A stretch of DNA of 64,000 nucleotides from Perognathus longimembris pacificus. Its lineage: Eukaryota > Chordata > Mammalia > Rodentia > Heteromyidae. Within the stretch, counting starts at the first letter, position 1; each line of letters starts with the position of its first letter. Positions 4,493-40,457 of this stretch are shown piece after piece. Made by a program: the position numbers and the translations under genes. The stretch covers positions 46,920,568-46,984,567 of the forward strand of contig NC_063172.1 of NCBI RefSeq assembly GCF_023159225.1. Reading direction: 5' to 3'. The notes beneath the pieces were generated by a model that ran no database searches, was not told the origin of the DNA, and worked only from the letters and a program-made list of their open reading frames with translations.

Positions 4493-5697
4493 GAAAAAAT
4501 TCAATCACAGCACCTAAATCGTATTGGCATCTCACAAAGTATTTACATAGACCTCTTATTTAATCTTCCTCTTAGCTTTCAACAAATGAGGCATAAGTTT
4601 TAAGTGGGAGCTACACATATACAAAAATACCTAAGTCCTCATTAGAATGTGAGGAGGAATTGGATTATATCAGGCTTCTTCTCTGTAGTGCCTAGAGGGC
4701 TTTGGGCCTGCATTTCCCAAGGACAGGTTCAGCTATGATATTCATGTAATCTTGAGTCCTGAATCAGAATCTCTGCACTTTCATTTTCTCAAACTTAAAT
4801 TTGTATTATCTTCTAACAGATTCCCATATGATGATGATAATAAATGGTCCAGTGTAGCAATTATTCATTGTATAATTCATGCTGTTACAAAGATTCTAAG
4901 AACATTCTAATGTGCTGTTGCTCAATTTTTTCTTTCTTTCTTTTTTTTTTTCTCAAAATTTGCTCAGGTTCTACTCCCAATGAGTTACAGGAGGGCAAAG
5001 TTTGCTTACTGACATTTTTCTAACATGTAGTCAGGATTGAGACTTCTGTTACCAGATAATGTTCAGGAATCCAATAATGTAGCCGAATTAGGACTACAGA
5101 AGGATAATTGAGCACCCATGTATCTTTCTCAAACCCATGGTACCTCCTTGGGGACAAAATGTCTTGTCTAAATTTCTTCATTACAACCCAAATTAGGTTG
5201 GACACTAGCAATCATCTGAAATACACGAGGACCATCACCTATGTTTCTAAAACTTGTGTAGTTAAGAACAGATGTTTGAATCAGAAAATATAAGTGGATA
5301 AACCTGAGGTTTTATCTCTTAGGATTCACTAGTATTATTCTGGAGTTGTTGACATATCATTCTCCTGGAGATTCTAGAAAGTTCTTCCACATCTTCTTTG
5401 AGCAACCATCTCCTCATGTCTGGAAGCTGCATCTTTTCAACTTCCTTCTGAATTTGGAGTATAAATGATAACCCAACTGTGCAACAAAATTATTGAATAG
5501 GAATACTAGTAAAATAACTCCTGTACTACACTCTTATGCCATTTGGGAACCAAAACCTATAAATACTTTTCTGAAAAATTATGGACACCCATCATGAGGA
5601 GTGATAAATATTGGCATCGTTAGCCACATGTGCATAACATTAGTTTTTCAACGTCACATATCAGGCTATAAAGCGCACAAATTTCATCTGAGGTGAT

Positions 5698-5800: not shown

Positions 5801-6960
5801 AGCTGAGATTATGGATAATGAGAGTACCATGTTTAACACTCTCTGAGGAGCTATTGTTCTCCACATATTGCTCTGTGCTGAACATTACTGACCTTCAAAA
5901 TGTACCAAAATCATTGGTATTTTCCTTTATAAAATAAAGGCTATTTCATTCAGTACTTTGGGTGAGTGAGAAGTTGTACATATCAGTTATTCACACATAC
6001 ATACAACATGGAAAGAAACCACCAAATGATTCAGCTTTGTTATTTTGGTGCAGAAAAGTGATTGATGACCTTAACAACTCATGAGGTCATAGTTTCTACA
6101 AATCCATAGGATTCACCAGTTTTAAAGTTCTCCCTCTTTCAAGATAGAAGAAATGGTTTAAAAAAAGTTCCATGTATTTCATTTGCATGATAGTATTATA
6201 CATATTTATATACATTTTATATTTATTATAACATGTTATATATGGTATGAATTATAGCTATATTTCACAGATACATATTATATTTATATACAAATGATTG
6301 TGTCTAATTAATAATTGCCCAAAAGTGTGTTTTCATTAAGAAAAGGCTACAAAAATTTCCAATTGAGTTAAAGAAAATCATGAAATAAGCAAATGTACTT
6401 TTGTCTAGAGCTAACAGTGGAAATTATTTTTAATCCAAATGGAAATAGAAATATTTTACATTGAAAAGTTTAGAACAATGAAGATGAGAAATGTATATTA
6501 TATATACTTATTCAAATTTCATAATGATGCCCATTATAAATACCTTAGGATAGGTGCTAAAAATGCTAGAAAAATAAAAATACGGTATATTTATTTTTTA
6601 TCATCTAGTTGTTAACTTTCAATGAATTTTTAATTTATCATATTCACAAGAAAACTGCAGAAGTAAGGTTCATACTTTTATGTTTATAAAAATTAAATGT
6701 ATTGATAATTTGCAAAAGATATAGTGATGTTCCACAAGATTAAACCACAAAAAAATTCCCTGAAAATAATTTCTTGAACTTGCATAGCACAATAAAAATA
6801 AGTTAATATATCTCAAACTTCAAGCAAGACAAAAATTAATGAACAGATTTTTCATGCCAAAAGACCTTATATAATAACAAATGAGTAATGAACGTGCCAC
6901 TTTTAATAATATATGATGGGTGTTTATTATCCTGGAAGGGTAGACCTAGTCCTACCTTTC

Positions 6961-6975: not shown

Positions 6976-8160
6976 GATGAGGCCTTACCAAAACAAAACC
7001 GCAAAGAACCAATATCCCCCTCATCAAGTGGGCTAAAGACTTACAAAGAAACTTCTCTGATGAGGAAATGAGAATGGCCAAGAGACATATGAAAAAATGC
7101 TCTACATCACTGGCCATAAAGGAAATGCAAATCAAAACAACATTGAGATTCCATCTCACCCCAGCAAGAATGTCATATATCAAGAAAACTAATAATAACA
7201 ACTGTTGGAGGGGATGTGGCCAAAAGGGAACCCTATTTCATTGTTGGTGGGAATGTAAACTGGTTCAGCCACTCTGGCAAGGAGTATGGAGATTCCTCAG
7301 AAGGCTCAATGTAGAACTCCCCTATGACCCAGCAGCCCCACTTTTGGGTATCTATCCAAAAGCCCACAAACAAAATCACAGTAATGCCACCAGCACAACA
7401 ATGTTCATCGCAGCACAATTTGTCATAGCGAGAAGCTGGAACCAACCCAGATGCCCCTCCATAGACGAATGGATCAGGAAAATATGGTACATATACACAA
7501 TGGAATTTTATGCCTCTATCAGAAAGAATAACATTGTTCCATTTGTAAGGAAATGGAAGGACTTGGAAAAAGTTATACTAAGTGAAGTGAGCCAGACCCA
7601 AAGAAACATGGACTCTATGGCGTCCCTTATTGGGAATAATTAGTACAGGTTTAGGCAAGCCATAGCAGAGCATCACAAGGCCCAATAGCTATACCCTTAT
7701 GAACACATAAGATGATGCTAAGTGAAATGAACTCCATGTTATGGAAACAATTGTTATATCACAGTTGTAACTACTTTCAACGTCCTATGTGTATGTGTAG
7801 TTTCTATTATTGATGATGTTCTTGTATCACCTTCCTGTGGTTGTACCTACACTATCTCTGTAATCTTATCTGAGTATATTGGAAACCGTGTTTACTGGTA
7901 TTGGAAGTAGGAAATTGAAAGGGAATACCAAAATTGAGAGACACAGGGTAAAAAAAGAGAAACAACTACAAAAGCAATACTTGCAAAACTGTTTGGTGTA
8001 AGTGAACTGAACACCTCGGGGTGGGGGGGGGAAAGGAAAAGGGAGGAGAGAGGGGGGCATGAGGGACAAGGTAACAAACAGTACAAGAAATGTATCCAAT
8101 GCCTAACGTATGAAACTGTAACCTCTCTGTACATCAGTTTGACAATAAAAATTTGAAAAA
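6976..8160 (+). mobile_element. 5'-truncated L1 insertion
   Basis: A 1.2-kb LINE-1 3' end flanked by a perfect 15-bp TSD. The frame 7068-7643 (191 codons) is the ORF2 C-terminal domain. It keeps the C-x3-C-x7-H-x4-C motif (Cys46, Cys50, His58, Cys63 of the frame) and the Trp-rich end. The 3' UTR follows, with a G-rich/purine tract at about 8020-8060, an AATAAA signal near 8144 and a short A-rich tail. No endonuclease or reverse transcriptase domain is present, so it cannot move by itself. The intact TSD and open C-terminal frame suggest a fairly recent insertion. Confidence 0.93.
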
Positions 8161-14064: not shown

Positions 14065-17000
14065 AATGAAAGGAATAAATGATCGTCTATCAATCCTCTC
14101 AAATTAATGGATTTAACTCTCCAATTAAACTACATAGACTCATAAGTTGGATCAAAAATCAAGAGACAACTTTCTGCTGCCTCCAAGAGACACATCTACC
14201 CAGAAAAAGCAAATATTTTCTAAAAGTGAATAACATCTACAAAGCAAATGGTCCCTATAAGGAGGCTGGAGTTGCAATCCTAATATCAGATAAAATTGAC
14301 TTCAAATTAAAAATGGTAAGAAGTGACAAAGAAAGTTACTACATACTAATAAAGGGATCTGTTCTAAAGGAGGATATAACCATTCTAAATATCTACACCC
14401 CAAATACAGGAGCATTGACTTTCATCAAACAAACACTACTGACTCTAAAAACACACATAGATCCAAACACATTGGTAATTGGTGACTTTAACACTCCTCT
14501 GGACAGACCAACACATGAAAAAATGATCAAAGAAACCTCAGAACTAAACAACTGCATAGACCAACTAGACCTTACTGACATCTACAGAATATTCCATCCA
14601 GCAACAACCAGAATATATATTCTCTTCTGCAGCACATGGAACATTCTCCAAAATAGATCACATCTCAGGGCACAAAGCAAGTCTGTACAAATTCAGAAGT
14701 ATCAAAATCATTCCCTGTATTCTCTCAGACCACAATGAAATAAAATTAGAGCACAACTCAAAAAGCCACCACAGAAAACCCTACAACTCATGTCAACTAA
14801 ACAACACATTGTTGAACCACCAGTGGGTCACTGAAGAAATTAGAACAGAAATTCAAATGTTTATGGACAAGATGAGAACACAAAGTATCAGCTCCCTTGG
14901 ACACAGCAAAGGCAGTACTCAGAGGAAAATTTGTAACTCTAAATGCCTACATCAAAAAAACTGGAGAAACAGCAATTCAACAACTCAAAGAAGAATCTTA
15001 ATCTCCTTGAAAGAGAACAACAAGACAAACCCCAAGCCAATAGACGGAAGCAAATAATTAAAATTAAATCAGAATTAAATGACTTAGAGTCAAAAAAAGA
15101 AAAAAAGTCCATAGAAAGAATCAACAAAATGAAGAGTTGGTTCTTTGTAAAAATTAACAAGATAGAGAGACCCCTAACAAATCTGACAAAAAACAATGGT
15201 AGCACACCCAAATAAACAAGAACAGAGATGAAACAGGTAACATCACCATAGAAACAACCAAAATTAAGAACACAATAAGGGAATATTTTGCAAACCTTAA
15301 CACCAACAAATTCGAGAAGCTGAAAGAAATGGATGAATTCCTAGTCAAAATTGATATGCTCAAACTTAACTATGAAGATTTAAACATTCTAAAGAGACCC
15401 ATATCCAGCACTTAAATAGAACCAAAATAAGAGGTCTCCCATGCAAGAAAAGCCCAGGTCCAGATGGATTCACAGCAGAATTCTACTAGGCCTTCAAAAC
15501 AGAACTCACACCAATATTTCTCAAACTCTTCAATGAAATTGTATGTGAAAGACCACTATCAAACATATTCTATAATGCCAGTCTATTCCTTATCCCAAAA
15601 CCAGGTAGGGACTCATCAAGCAAAGAGAAATATAGACTAATTTCACTGATGAACATCGATGCAATAATTCTCAACAAAATTCTGGCCAATAGACTTCAAC
15701 AGGTAATCAAAAAAATAATACACTATGACCAAACTGGATTCATCTCCAGTATGCAGAGCTGGTTCAATATAAGCAATTCAATCAACATAATCCAGCACAT
15801 CAACAGGAGCAAGGTCAAGAATCACATGATTATATCACTAGATGGGGAAAAAACATTTGATAAAATCCAGCACCCATTTTTGATAAAAAACTTTGGAGAA
15901 ACTACGATTACAGGGAACATTCCTGAATATAATTAAGACTGTCTACAACAAACCCACAGCAAACATTACTCTTAATGAGGAAAAGTTAAAACCATTTCCT
16001 CTACAATCAGAAGCAAGACAAGGTTGTCTACCCTCCCCTCTCCTCTTCAACATAGTACTAGAATTCCTAGCCAGAGCAGTAAGGCAAGAGGAAGACATAA
16101 AGGGGATCCAAATAGGAAAAGAAGTCAAACTCTCTTTGCAGATGACATGATCCTGTATCTAAAGAGCCCCGTAGAATTTACTCCCAAGTTAATTGAGCTG
16201 ATCCAAAACTTTGCCAAAGTAGCAGGATATAAAATAAACCCTCAAAATTCAATGGCCTTTCTATATGCCAACGACCTGAAGACTGAGGCCGAAATCAGGA
16301 AAGCAACTCATCTTGCAATACCCTCAAAAAACATAAAAAACCTAGGAATAACCTTAACCAAAGAAGTGAAAGACCTCTATGATGAGAACTTTAAAAACAT
16401 GAAAAATGAAATTAATGCAGAAGTAAGGTAATGGAAAAACCTCTCATGCTCCTGGATTGGGAGGATTAATATAGTCAAAAATGGCAATATTGCCAAAGGC
16501 TATCTACAAATTCAATGCGATTCCCATTATTATCCCAACACCATTTTTTAATAAAATAGGGGAAGCAATCCAGAAATTCATATGGAACAATAAAAACCCA
16601 GAATAGCAAAAACAATCCTAAGCAGAAGAACAGTGCTGGAGGAATTACAATAACAAACTTCAAGCTGTATTATAAAACTATAGAAATAAAAACAGCCTGG
16701 TATTGGCACCGGAACAGGCCTGAAGACCAATGGAACAGAATTGAAGACCCAGAATTGTACCTAAAGAACTATGCCCACTTAATCTTTGATAAAGGAGCTA
16801 AAAAAAATAGGATGGAAGAAAGATAGCCTCTTTAACAAATGGTGCTGGCAAAACTGGTTTAAGACCTGCAACAAATTAAAAGTAGATCCTTATATATCAC
16901 CCTGCACCAAATCAATTCCAAATGGATCAAAGACCTCGAAATAAAAGATATCCTGACACTCTACAAGAAGGAGTAGGAAAAAACCTTGGGTCCTTGGCAC

Positions 17001-21624: not shown

Positions 21625-22045
21625 GTTTTTTCTTATTTATTGTCAAAGTGGTGTACAGAGAGGTTACAGTTTCATATATTAAGCCTTGGGTACATTTCTT
21701 GAACTGTTTGTTACCTCCTCCTTCATTCCCCCTCCCCCCTCCCCTTTTCCCTCTCCCCCCATGAGTTGTTCACTGGTTTACACCAAACTGTTTTGCAAGT
21801 ATTGCTTTTGTAGTCATTTGTCTTTTTATCCTTTGTCTCTCGATTTTGATATTCCCTGTCATGTCCCTAGTTCTAATATAAGTATATATAGTATCTAATG
21901 TATTCAGATGATACAGTGATACTGCAGGTACAATCACAGGAAGGGATTCAAGAGGATCATTAACAAAAGAAGCTACAGTTTCACATAGCATGTTGAAAGT
22001 AATTACAACAGTGATATAACACTTGTTTCCATAGCATGGAGTTCA
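21625..22045 (-). mobile_element. Short 5'-truncated L1 3' end
   Basis: Reverse complement of about 420 bp of the L1 3' UTR, including the pyrimidine-rich tract (21718-21765), the TTTATTGTCAAAG end and the ATGAACTCCATG block at its inner end. A perfect 16-bp TSD proves it is a separate insertion into the older L1. No coding sequence. The 70-codon frame at 21686-21898 is chance. Confidence 0.93.
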
Positions 22046-22061
22046 TGAAATCTCAAATTAT
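22046..22061. repeat. Target-site duplication, right copy
   Basis: Second exact copy of TGAAATCTCAAATTAT. Confidence 0.93.
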
Positions 22062-22317: not shown

Positions 22318-22332
22318 AAGAGTGTTATTAGG
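22318..22332. repeat. Target-site duplication, left copy (chimeric L1/env insertion)
   Basis: AAGAGTGTTATTAGG recurs exactly at 24893-24907. It frames the entire 22333-24892 chimera as one insertion event. Confidence 0.93.
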
Positions 22333-22876
22333 CCATTCTCATTTTCTCATCACAGAAGTCTCTTTCTAAGGCTTCAGCCCACTTGTTGAGGGGGCAATTA
22401 CTTCTTTGCACTTTTGTTGCCAGAATGTAATTTTTTCAGTTTTGAATATATATTGGATATGAGACCGTTGTCCGTTTTATGGCTGGTAAAGAACTTTATC
22501 CAATTTGTAGGCTTTCTGTTTATCTTGCAAGCTATGTCCTTTGCCCTGCAGAAACTCTGCAGTTTGATGCATTCCCATTTGTCCATCCTTTCTATGATTT
22601 GTAGCATTTCTGGGTCTTGGTTAAGGAAGTTTCATCCCGTGCCAAGGAGCCCAAGTGTTTCTCCTACTACTTCACTTAGAATTTTCAGGGTATCTGTTTT
22701 AATTTCGAGGTCTTTGATCCATTTGGAAATGATTTTGGGGCAGGGTGATATGTATGGATCTAGTGTTAGTTTGTTGGATGTGTTTAACCAGTTTTGCCAG
22801 CACCATTTGTTAAAAAGGCAATCTTTCTTACATCCTATTTTTTAGGTCCTTTATCAAAGATTTAGTAGGCATAGTT
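22333..22876 (-). mobile_element. Inverted L1 ORF2 piece of chimeric retroposon
   Basis: Reverse complement of L1 ORF2 from about the position equivalent to 16770-17300 in the L1 at 11274. Read on the minus strand it ends at the block GAGAATGGCC, which in intact L1s is followed within about five bases by the sequence that opens the plus-strand L1 piece at 23827. The right edge at about 22876 (GGCATAGTT, then a break) is where L1 similarity stops and env-derived sequence starts. This is the inverted half of a twin-primed L1 insertion. Confidence 0.88.
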
Positions 22877-23826
22877 GTGTGGGTCCACCATCTTTGTTTA
22901 AAGAAGTGAACTCGCCTGTTTTAGGTTGGGTGGGTCACCTAGCCTGCCTTAAACCATCCTCGGGATCTTTTTCAGAGCAACGCTGAAGGCCCTGTAATAG
23001 GTTGGTCAGAATGAGACCCCCTCGTACCCTTCTCTGGCTGTGGTTCCTCTCAGGGGAAAATTCATTCACGTGGAACTTGACCTTATGCAGCTGGCAGGCT
23101 AACCTCATGAAAGAGTTTTGCAATATGCATACAATCCAAGGAAGGCATAGAAAAACCATCAGCAAAAGTATCTCTGGGCCGAGCAATGTCATTAGCAGCC
23201 CCTTAACAATAGTCAAGGAAGGGATATACTGTTGAAGTTGTTCAAACAGTTCTTTTGCTGTTTCTGCCACTTCAGAGTCCAGAGGCGGAGCTTGTTCTAG
23301 TCCAGCTATTTGCCTAGGGAGTTGAAAGTGATCTAAGGACAAATTATTATGTTGCCAAATACCATCAAGATGTGCTACAACTTGTTCCCAAGGATAGCTC
23401 AACCCATTATATTTATGGAGGGTGACACAGATAAAGTCAAACCCAGCATGACAGTGCACCAGTTGCAAAGTTTGTAAAGCATGAATTTGTTCTCTGAGAG
23501 ACAACACAGATTCATACAATGCTTCTAATTTTTGTTCTACCTTATCATCAATCCTGCCTTGAAAGTGCAGGGCTTGCATAGTATTATGAGCAAGCAGATT
23601 GACATAATGAGTTGGCTGCACACTTTGTGCTAAAGCCACAGTAGCTGCTGTAGAAGAGGTAGAGAAAGAAATAAAGGCTACAATGCCTGCTATCAATAGC
23701 CCTATAAATCGTCTATGGCGCATGAGCTCTTTTAAATGTTTTAACACTTGAATACCTGTTTCTTCATAACAAGCTTCAGATATGTTCACAGGAAGCATGA
23801 CAAATGGAGGCTGCTTAATAACAATT
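22877..23826 (-). mobile_element. Captured endogenous retrovirus env segment
   Basis: About 950 bp of retroviral env in antisense to the window, placed between the two halves of one L1 insertion. It contains the last part of SU, all of TM, the stop and about 58 bp of 3' flank. No LTR, gag or pol is present. Because the flanking L1 halves share one TSD and no additional TSD surrounds this block, it probably entered during the same reverse-transcription event by a template switch, not as a separate provirus. The right junction lies near 23826 where ACATATGAAAA of L1 begins. Confidence 0.85.
22935..23798 (-). CDS. env: Retroviral Env transmembrane subunit fragment (betaretrovirus-like)
   Basis: A 287-codon frame from the first Met, open a further nine codons upstream to the junction. 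Visible parts in order: a short SU remnant (1-26), a furin-like RHRR site (27-30), an Ala/Ser/Gly-rich hydrophobic fusion-peptide-like segment (31-55), heptad-type helix sequence (56-110), a C-x7-C disulfide loop (Cys116, Cys124), a membrane-proximal helix, a hydrophobic membrane anchor (about 199-226) and a roughly 60-residue basic cytoplasmic tail. The layout fits class II (MMTV/HERV-K/IAPE-like) Env; that family has a noncovalent CX7C-type TM loop. No signal peptide and almost no SU are present, so an intact Env cannot be made from it. No promoter of its own is evident. Whether it is expressed is unknown. Confidence 0.85.
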   Translation of the reverse strand: MLPVNISEACYEETGIQVLKHLKELMRHRRFIGLLIAGIVAFISFSTSSTAATVALAQSVQPTHYVNLLAHNTMQALHFQGRIDDKVEQKLEALYESVLSLREQIHALQTLQLVHCHAGFDFICVTLHKYNGLSYPWEQVVAHLDGIWQHNNLSLDHFQLPRQIAGLEQAPPLDSEVAETAKELFEQLQQYIPSLTIVKGLLMTLLGPEILLLMVFLCLPWIVCILQNSFMRLACQLHKVKFHVNEFSPERNHSQRRVRGGLILTNLLQGLQRCSEKDPEDGLRQAR

Positions 23827-24892
23827 ACATATGAAAATTTTCCCTAAATCACTGGCCATAAAAGAAATGCAAATCAAAACAACATTGAGATTCCATCTCA
23901 TACCTGTAAGAATGTCCTACTACAAGAAAACTAACAATAACAAATGTTGGAAGGGATATGGCTAAAAGGGAACCCTACTTCATTGTTGGTGGGAATGTAA
24001 ACTGGTTCAGCCACTCTGGGAAGTGGTATGGAAATTCTTCAGAAGGCTAAGCAAAGAGCTCCCCTATGACCCAGCTGCCCCATTTTGAGGCATCTACCCA
24101 AAAGACCACAAACAAGAACACACTAAAGCCACCAGTACAACAATGTTTATCACAGCACAATTTGTCATAGCTAAAATATGGAACAAAACCAGATGCCCCT
24201 CAGTAAAATCACGATCAGGAAAATGTGGTACATATACACAATGGAATTTTATGCCTCTATCAGAATGAATGAAATTGCCCCATTCGTAAGGAAATGGAAG
24301 GACTTGAAAAAAATTATACTAAGTGAAATCAGCCAGATGAAAAGAAATTTGGACTCTATGATCTTCCTCATAGGGAGTAATTAGCACAGGTTTAGGCTAG
24401 TCACAGCGGAGGATTACAAGATCCCAGTAGTTATACCCTGATGAACACATAAGATGAAGCTCAGTGAAATAAACTCCGTGTTATGGAAATGAGTGTTATA
24501 TCACTGTTGTAATTATTTTCAACATGCCATAGGAAACCATAGCTTCCATTGTTGATTATCCTCTTGTATCTCCTTCCTGTGGATGTACCTGCACTACCAC
24601 TGTATCTTATCTGAGTACATTGGAAACTGTGTATACTGGTATTAGAACTAGGAAAGTGAAAGTGAATACTAAAATCAAGAGACACAATATAAAAGGACAA
24701 ACGACTGCAAAAGCAATGCTTGCCCAACTGGTGTAAACCAACTGAACACTCATGAGGGAGAGGGAAAGAGGAAGAGGGGAGAGGGGAAGGAGGGAGGAGG
24801 TAACAAACTGTACAAGAAATGTATCCAATGCCTAACGTATGAAGTTGTAGCCACTCTGTACATCATTTTGACAATAAAAAAATTTTTTTAAA
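23827..24892 (+). mobile_element. L1 3' piece of chimeric retroposon
   Basis: L1 ORF2 C-terminus with the cysteine motif near 23943-23995, then a full 3' UTR with purine tract (24750-24800) and the end ATTTTGACAATAAAAAAATT. The chance-sized frame 24178-24384 is the ORF2 end in one frame. It starts five or so L1 bases after the point where the inverted piece at 22333 ends, showing both come from one L1 RNA. Confidence 0.92.
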
Positions 24893-24907
24893 AAGAGTGT
24901 TATTAGG
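24893..24907. repeat. Target-site duplication, right copy (chimeric L1/env insertion)
   Basis: Exact second copy of AAGAGTGTTATTAGG, next to the A-rich tail. Confidence 0.93.
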
Positions 24908-37930: not shown

Positions 37931-38011
37931 AGCTCTCTCTCCCTTCTCTCCGGCCATGGATCATCTCAGCCACAGGCCAGCAGTTCGGTAATAAACTTTC
38001 TTTCCTGCCTG
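37931..38011 (+). other. Retroviral R region, 5' copy
   Basis: R as it stands at the 5' end of the RNA: GCTCTCTCTCCC start, GGCCATGGATCATCT body, AATAAA at 37990-37995 and CCTGA at its 3' end. About 94% the same as the 3' copy at 40366-40450. Confidence 0.85.
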
Positions 38012-38035
38012 AATATGGTGTGGTGTTCTCTTTTA

Positions 38036-40365: not shown

Positions 40366-40457
40366 GCTCTCTCTCTCTCCCTTCTCTCCGGCCATGGATC
40401 ATCTTGGCCACAGGCCAGCAGTTTAGTAATAAACTTTCTCTCTTGCCTGAAAAAAAA
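40366..40457 (+). terminator. Retroviral R, 3' copy, with poly(A) signal and tail
   Basis: AATAAA at 40428-40433, cleavage point after TTGCCTGA at 40450, then seven or more A. There is no U5 after it, as expected for a polyadenylated RNA end and not for a provirus. Confidence 0.85.

Follow-up and report, generated by a model that had tools for sequence, protein, structure and literature searches.

L1 insertions that arise by target-primed reverse transcription (TPRT) carry target-site duplications (TSDs) of about 7-20 bp. L1 twin priming was reportedly put forward by Ostertag and Kazazian in 2001. More recently, Law and Burns (2026) dealt with 5' transductions and promoter-co-opting L1s, among them RAP1GDS1-L1PA2; in the part of their account used here, 5'-inverted L1s are left out of the chimera prediction, so that an insertion of the type described below lies outside the reach of that survey (PMC13174262). 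The small selection of literature examined held no recognised inverted insertion from a transcript of a provirus within an L1, which does not establish that precedent is absent. We analysed a window of 64,000 nucleotides from the genome of Perognathus longimembris pacificus, in which one insertion combines inverted L1, antisense retroviral env and direct L1 sequence. We hold with high confidence that it is the twin-primed copy of a transcript from a provirus nested in an older L1, and that no template switch is needed to explain it.

The insert is enclosed by a perfect 15-bp TSD, AAGAGTGTTATTAGG, whose two copies are identical and flush with it, as an earlier sequence-only reading had recognised (Table 1). 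The insertion site, TT/AAGA, has one mismatch to the L1 EN-like site TT/AAAA. The order proposed in that reading, with env in antisense between an inverted and a direct L1 segment, was borne out by matches to other L1 copies and to env. The inverted arm, starting at 22333, corresponds to L1 copy A from 17301 down to 16767 on the minus strand, and its part at 22632-22841 matches LINE-1 ORF2p of solved structures (E 2.6e-18). The direct arm, starting at 23827, corresponds to L1 copy B from 7085 onward. On copy B the two L1 edges lie at 7077 and 7085, leaving 7 bases missing, or 5 if the GG common to the TSD is counted as L1; these two shared bases at the TSD/L1 edge may reflect complementarity between the second primer and the RNA. 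The near adjacency of the edges, already pointed out, thus stands. The env segment does lie between the two L1 arms, but its borders had to be moved: alignment to the env-L1 fused copies described below places the L1/ERV border at 22883/22884 rather than 22876/22877, and env extends to 23829, not 23826, with 2-3 bases (CA or ACA) in common with the start of L1 at 23827/23828. Similarly, the insert has an L1 3' end with AATAAA, but the supposed A-rich tail that follows, AAAATTTTTTTAAA, is short and A/T-rich, with no pure A run, and is not a clean poly(A).

Table 1. Features of the insertion at 22318-24907 of the window
Feature	Position	Strand	Evidence or remark
TSD, 5' copy	22318..22332	+	EN-like site TT/AAGA at start
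L1 ORF2 segment, inverted arm	22333..22883	-	matches to L1 copies and LINE-1 ORF2p
CCCACA, one copy of the 6-bp proviral duplication	22878..22883	-	alignment to fused copies
Polypurine tract AAAGATGGTGGA, right end of provirus	22884..22895	-	
ERVK-like env, 3' part, open frame, stop codon at 22935	22935..23829	-	
L1 3' part (end of ORF2 and 3' UTR)	23827..24872	+	overlaps env by 2-3 bases
AATAAA and A/T-rich tail	24873..24892	+	
TSD, 3' copy	24893..24907	+	

When the insert and one of the two TSD copies are removed, the flanking sequence gives an alignment that spans the join, with the L1 copy at 15012-15530 (65%, 526 columns). The joined flanks therefore behave as expected of an empty site, and the target site is an older L1. 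At this target site, antisense L1 3' UTR (21633-22046) stands beside direct L1 ORF2-like sequence (22068 on), perhaps representing two older L1s or another rearranged L1.

The whole structure represents a single L1 insertion made by twin priming. A straight env-L1 insertion that was inverted after integration by a DNA rearrangement would also be expected to show this arrangement of segments. However, one end of such an inversion would have to coincide exactly with the TSD, and the 5-7 bases missing at the L1 break are what twin priming predicts; we consider a later inversion highly improbable.

The env segment belongs to a 302-aa open frame on the minus strand (22935-23843), which gives a Pfam GP41 match (E 1.3e-30) and also matches ERVK entries of the PDB. 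The closest proteins are 6 Env sequences with 38-45% identity, most of them named ERVK-7-like, while a search of a phage collection gave no match.

A template switch during this insertion predicts that env and this L1 had not been together before it. To test this, we used the env segment as a query against the genome of the window (G000, 2.21 Gb), so that all comparisons are made within this genome. We scored 40 of 1350 candidate env places, and all counts are accordingly lower bounds. One place was the window itself, 32 matched at 96-97% and 7, which we call plain ERVs, at 92-93%. In 32/32 places of the first group, env abuts the L1 known from the window insertion, always at the identical base, with no inversion and in one orientation. 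This junction was found in 0/7 of the listed places at 92-93%, where the match to the env query begins only at its base 8 or 12. The suggestion that other L1 copies with env should be sought in the genome was therefore fruitful, with at least 32 places found, all of them uninverted. These fused places were read as 33 stretches, L002 and L009 being one place. In all 32, L1 continues past the point of inversion, and the positions that correspond to the two L1 edges of the window are separated by 8 or 11 bases. In the seven fused copies tested, the L1 and env of 22600-23829 form a single alignment run (7/7), and 23828-24100 matches the opposite strand, directly adjoining. The first seven fused loci differ from one another by less than 1%, and some of the at least 32 places may be assembly duplicates of each other: C3648 and C3649 are equal in size and env position, and C1492 and C3678 agree in env position only. 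Contigs carrying the 32 env copies range from 28 kb to 1.64 Mb in length; none of these copies is on the contigs of at least 46 Mb to which the window and the 7 plain copies belong.

These copies bear directly on the origin of the L1/env join. The sequence-only reading had explained it by a jump during twin priming, with the reverse transcriptase leaving the L1 RNA at about 22876 and continuing on an env RNA. The orientation of every part agrees with such a jump, and template switching and, separately, antisense twin-priming chimeras are known for snRNAs, as far as the cited account extends (PMC4476161). However, the junction, 7 bases away from the proposed jump, pre-exists to the base and uninverted in 32/32 places and bears the 6-bp duplication of a provirus. 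The jump would thus have had to recreate a provirus/L1 junction by chance. It would be rescued if the fused copies derived from the window, but the window lacks their LTR, the remainder of their provirus and their L1 5' half. We give template switching during twin priming very little credence.

Sequence divergence points to a single template. Against one fused copy, the window shows 18/542 mismatches in inverted L1, 28/939 in env and 28/996 in direct L1, a homogeneous divergence of about 3% over the three segments (p 0.85; p 0.87 and 0.86 with two further copies). Over 22333-22876 the window differs by 2.95-3.69% from 11 fused stretches of 10 places, while its env differs by 7.25-7.68% from the plain ERVs (3/7 compared). 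The shared junction and the uniform divergence show that env and L1 were already fused in the RNA. Twin priming in a single insertion event, as proposed earlier, is upheld by the TSD, the EN-like site, the inverted/direct order and the adjacent breakpoints, and all segments come from one RNA.

The same data leave next to no room for env having entered the L1 copy later, as a separate event, a reading in whose favour no point was found. Env lies precisely where the two twin-priming cDNAs meet, the source copies have it directly adjoining the same L1, its divergence equals that of the L1 arms, and no direct repeat of at least 14 bp, the shortest visible to the method, surrounds it. Template switching, later entry of env and inversion after insertion were thus rejected on the evidence of junction, divergence and breakpoints.

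The fused copies differ from the window in one respect. About 42 bases of L1 3' UTR that are present in the window are missing in all 31 places that could be read there (stretches L002-L008, L009, L014, L018 and L021-L042; L013 stops short of the region). No fused copy with the full L1 3' UTR, and so no exact copy of the template, was found among these 31. Relative to the present fused copies, the template was thus ancestral or a sister; these copies were multiplied or homogenised after the window insertion. A loss of the bases by the fused copies is more probable than a gain in the window, because other L1 copies of the window (families D5 and D7) align there without a gap.

The fused copies reveal how env and L1 came to be joined. 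Their order is L1 5' half, 5' LTR, env, polypurine tract and L1 3' half. On the right they read from the env stop through AAAGATGGTGGA and CCCACA into the L1 3' half, and 11 stretches, representing 10 places, have CCCACA behind the polypurine tract. On the left, the L1 5' half ends in GAACCCACA, followed by the TG of the 5' LTR (found in three stretches, L013, L015 and L017). The presence of CCCACA at both proviral ends identifies it as a duplication of 6 bp made on integration. On copy A, the match of the L1 5' half ends at 16761 and that of the L1 3' half starts at 16767. When the two halves are joined with one CCCACA, they align with copy A at 84% over 603 columns without a gap at the join, the 11 gap positions all lying away from it. 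The duplication and the gapless joined halves show that the provirus integrated into an L1, both running in one direction, and the window's L1/env join is a retroviral integration junction. An argument made earlier, that env, had it inserted independently, would require a duplication of its own and that none is seen, holds in its first part, as the provirus does have a 6-bp duplication, but not in its second: one copy is present at 22878-22883. It is the only one in the window, the other lying at the 5' LTR of the source.

This provirus has a single LTR. Its left TG stands at CCCACA and the duplication is intact (L015 about 5070-5090; L009 about 6222-6239). With an LTR query, no second LTR was matched in L009 and L014, which extend about 4.6 and about 7.1 kb beyond the L1 3' end. 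The right end of the provirus is 2 bases short of the U3 TG in the plain copies that read GGGGGAGA followed by TG (3/7); the other 4/7 plain ERVs differ from this reading by one or more bases. A one-LTR viral DNA ending at the polypurine tract would fit these observations, as would a provirus from which almost exactly one LTR was lost later. Aberrant integration with one DNA end that is a poor substrate has been described for ASLV and HIV vectors, in the part of the work cited here (PMC5041404). By analogy, integration of this kind might have produced the one-LTR provirus. Compared with a plain ERV, the provirus lacks internal stretches. It also contains about 2.3 kb (L015 1638-3933) that have no match in the plain ERV stretches L016 and L020 and are perhaps a nested element. 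Elsewhere in the window, an 81-bp stretch at 37933-38013 is repeated 2.4 kb away at 40371-40451 (93%); it is LTR-like by eye and contains AATAAA, and the two repeats may represent paired LTRs of a short element.

In C3923:308000-345000 the provirus-in-L1 unit is itself repeated every ~16,657 bp (L013, L014, L017 and L018). Env is present there three times, at 310087, 326742 and 343390 (spacings of 16,655 and 16,648), and L014 matches L017 and L018 one 16,657-base period further on at 99.6-99.9%. In the first of the three copies, the L1 3' half is cut at position 1473 of L013. In L017 the L1 5' half matches copy A for about 2.0 kb and then gives way to a different L1 stretch, at a point that we judge to lie inside ORF2. 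As the L1 5' half breaks off in this way, no L1 promoter is seen, which makes the LTR the likelier promoter and points to L1 proteins acting in trans. For the 3' flank of the source L1, no repeat was found beside the L1 5' end or in the stretches examined, with one mismatch in 12 bases tolerated only near the 5' end.

We therefore favour nested-provirus read-through followed by twin priming, which would have run as follows. An ERVK-like provirus integrated in sense orientation into an old L1, duplicating the 6 bp CCCACA. With a 5' LTR and no 3' LTR, its env continues straight through the polypurine tract into the L1 3' half. The transcript probably began in the 5' LTR and was polyadenylated at the L1 3' end, and this fusion RNA would have been used in trans by the L1 machinery. 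A first cDNA, primed at the A-rich tail, would have extended along L1 as far as about 23828. Priming by the second nicked strand would have taken place on the same RNA, in its L1 portion and 5-7 bases further upstream in L1, and the second cDNA would have run through L1 and then env without a break before stopping at 23829. Finally, the two cDNAs may have been joined over the 2-3 bases that they share.

The open env frame does not need selection as an explanation. Among the changes that could be assigned, in a comparison covering 9 of the at least 32 fused places and 3/7 plain ERVs, the window branch has 11 (8 nonsynonymous, 3 synonymous and no stop) and the branch of the fused copies 15 (13 nonsynonymous and 2 synonymous). 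The unconstrained expectation is 0.67/0.29/0.04 for nonsynonymous, synonymous and stop changes, and the 8 nonsynonymous and 3 synonymous changes of the window branch give no sign of selection on the frame. The same env piece is open in 6/9 fused copies; it is not open in the other 3/9, nor in the 3 plain ERVs.

This locus illustrates that a seeming template-switch chimera can be the read-through product of a nested locus. It follows that a pre-existing junction should be looked for in the same genome before template switching is claimed. A provirus nested in an L1 fragment also constitutes a route by which retroviral coding sequence is handed to L1 for copying. More speculatively, and we think the odds are against it, the one-LTR provirus with its right end at the polypurine-tract/U3 border may have turned a promoterless L1 fragment into a composite LTR-env-L1 unit. 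In such a unit the LTR would provide transcription and the dead L1 a 3' end for L1 proteins, and the window insertion would be the only recognised offspring. If so, L1 could spread retroviral env without retroviral machinery.

Set against described systems, as they appear in the parts of the papers cited here, the window insertion combines known processes. It shares with L1 twin priming the inverted/direct order in one TSD, the adjacent breakpoints and the short shared bases, but its second cDNA extends beyond L1 into retroviral sequence (PMC2837659). As in the snRNA/L1 chimeras, foreign antisense sequence adjoins direct L1 inside one TSD; there, however, the second reverse transcription begins on a separate snRNA, whereas here it begins on L1, within one RNA (PMC4476161). 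HERV-W processed pseudogenes likewise show the L1 machinery copying a retroviral transcript, but they have R-U5 and U3-R ends and poly(A), while the window's RNA had an L1 3' end (PMC5537654). RAP1GDS1-L1PA2 offers a fusion RNA with a foreign 5' part and an L1 3' part, transcribed from a genomic locus and inserted with a TSD and an EN motif. In that case, the join is spliced and the L1 nearly full length, whereas the window insertion derives from a nested provirus, carries an L1 fragment and is inverted (PMC13174262).
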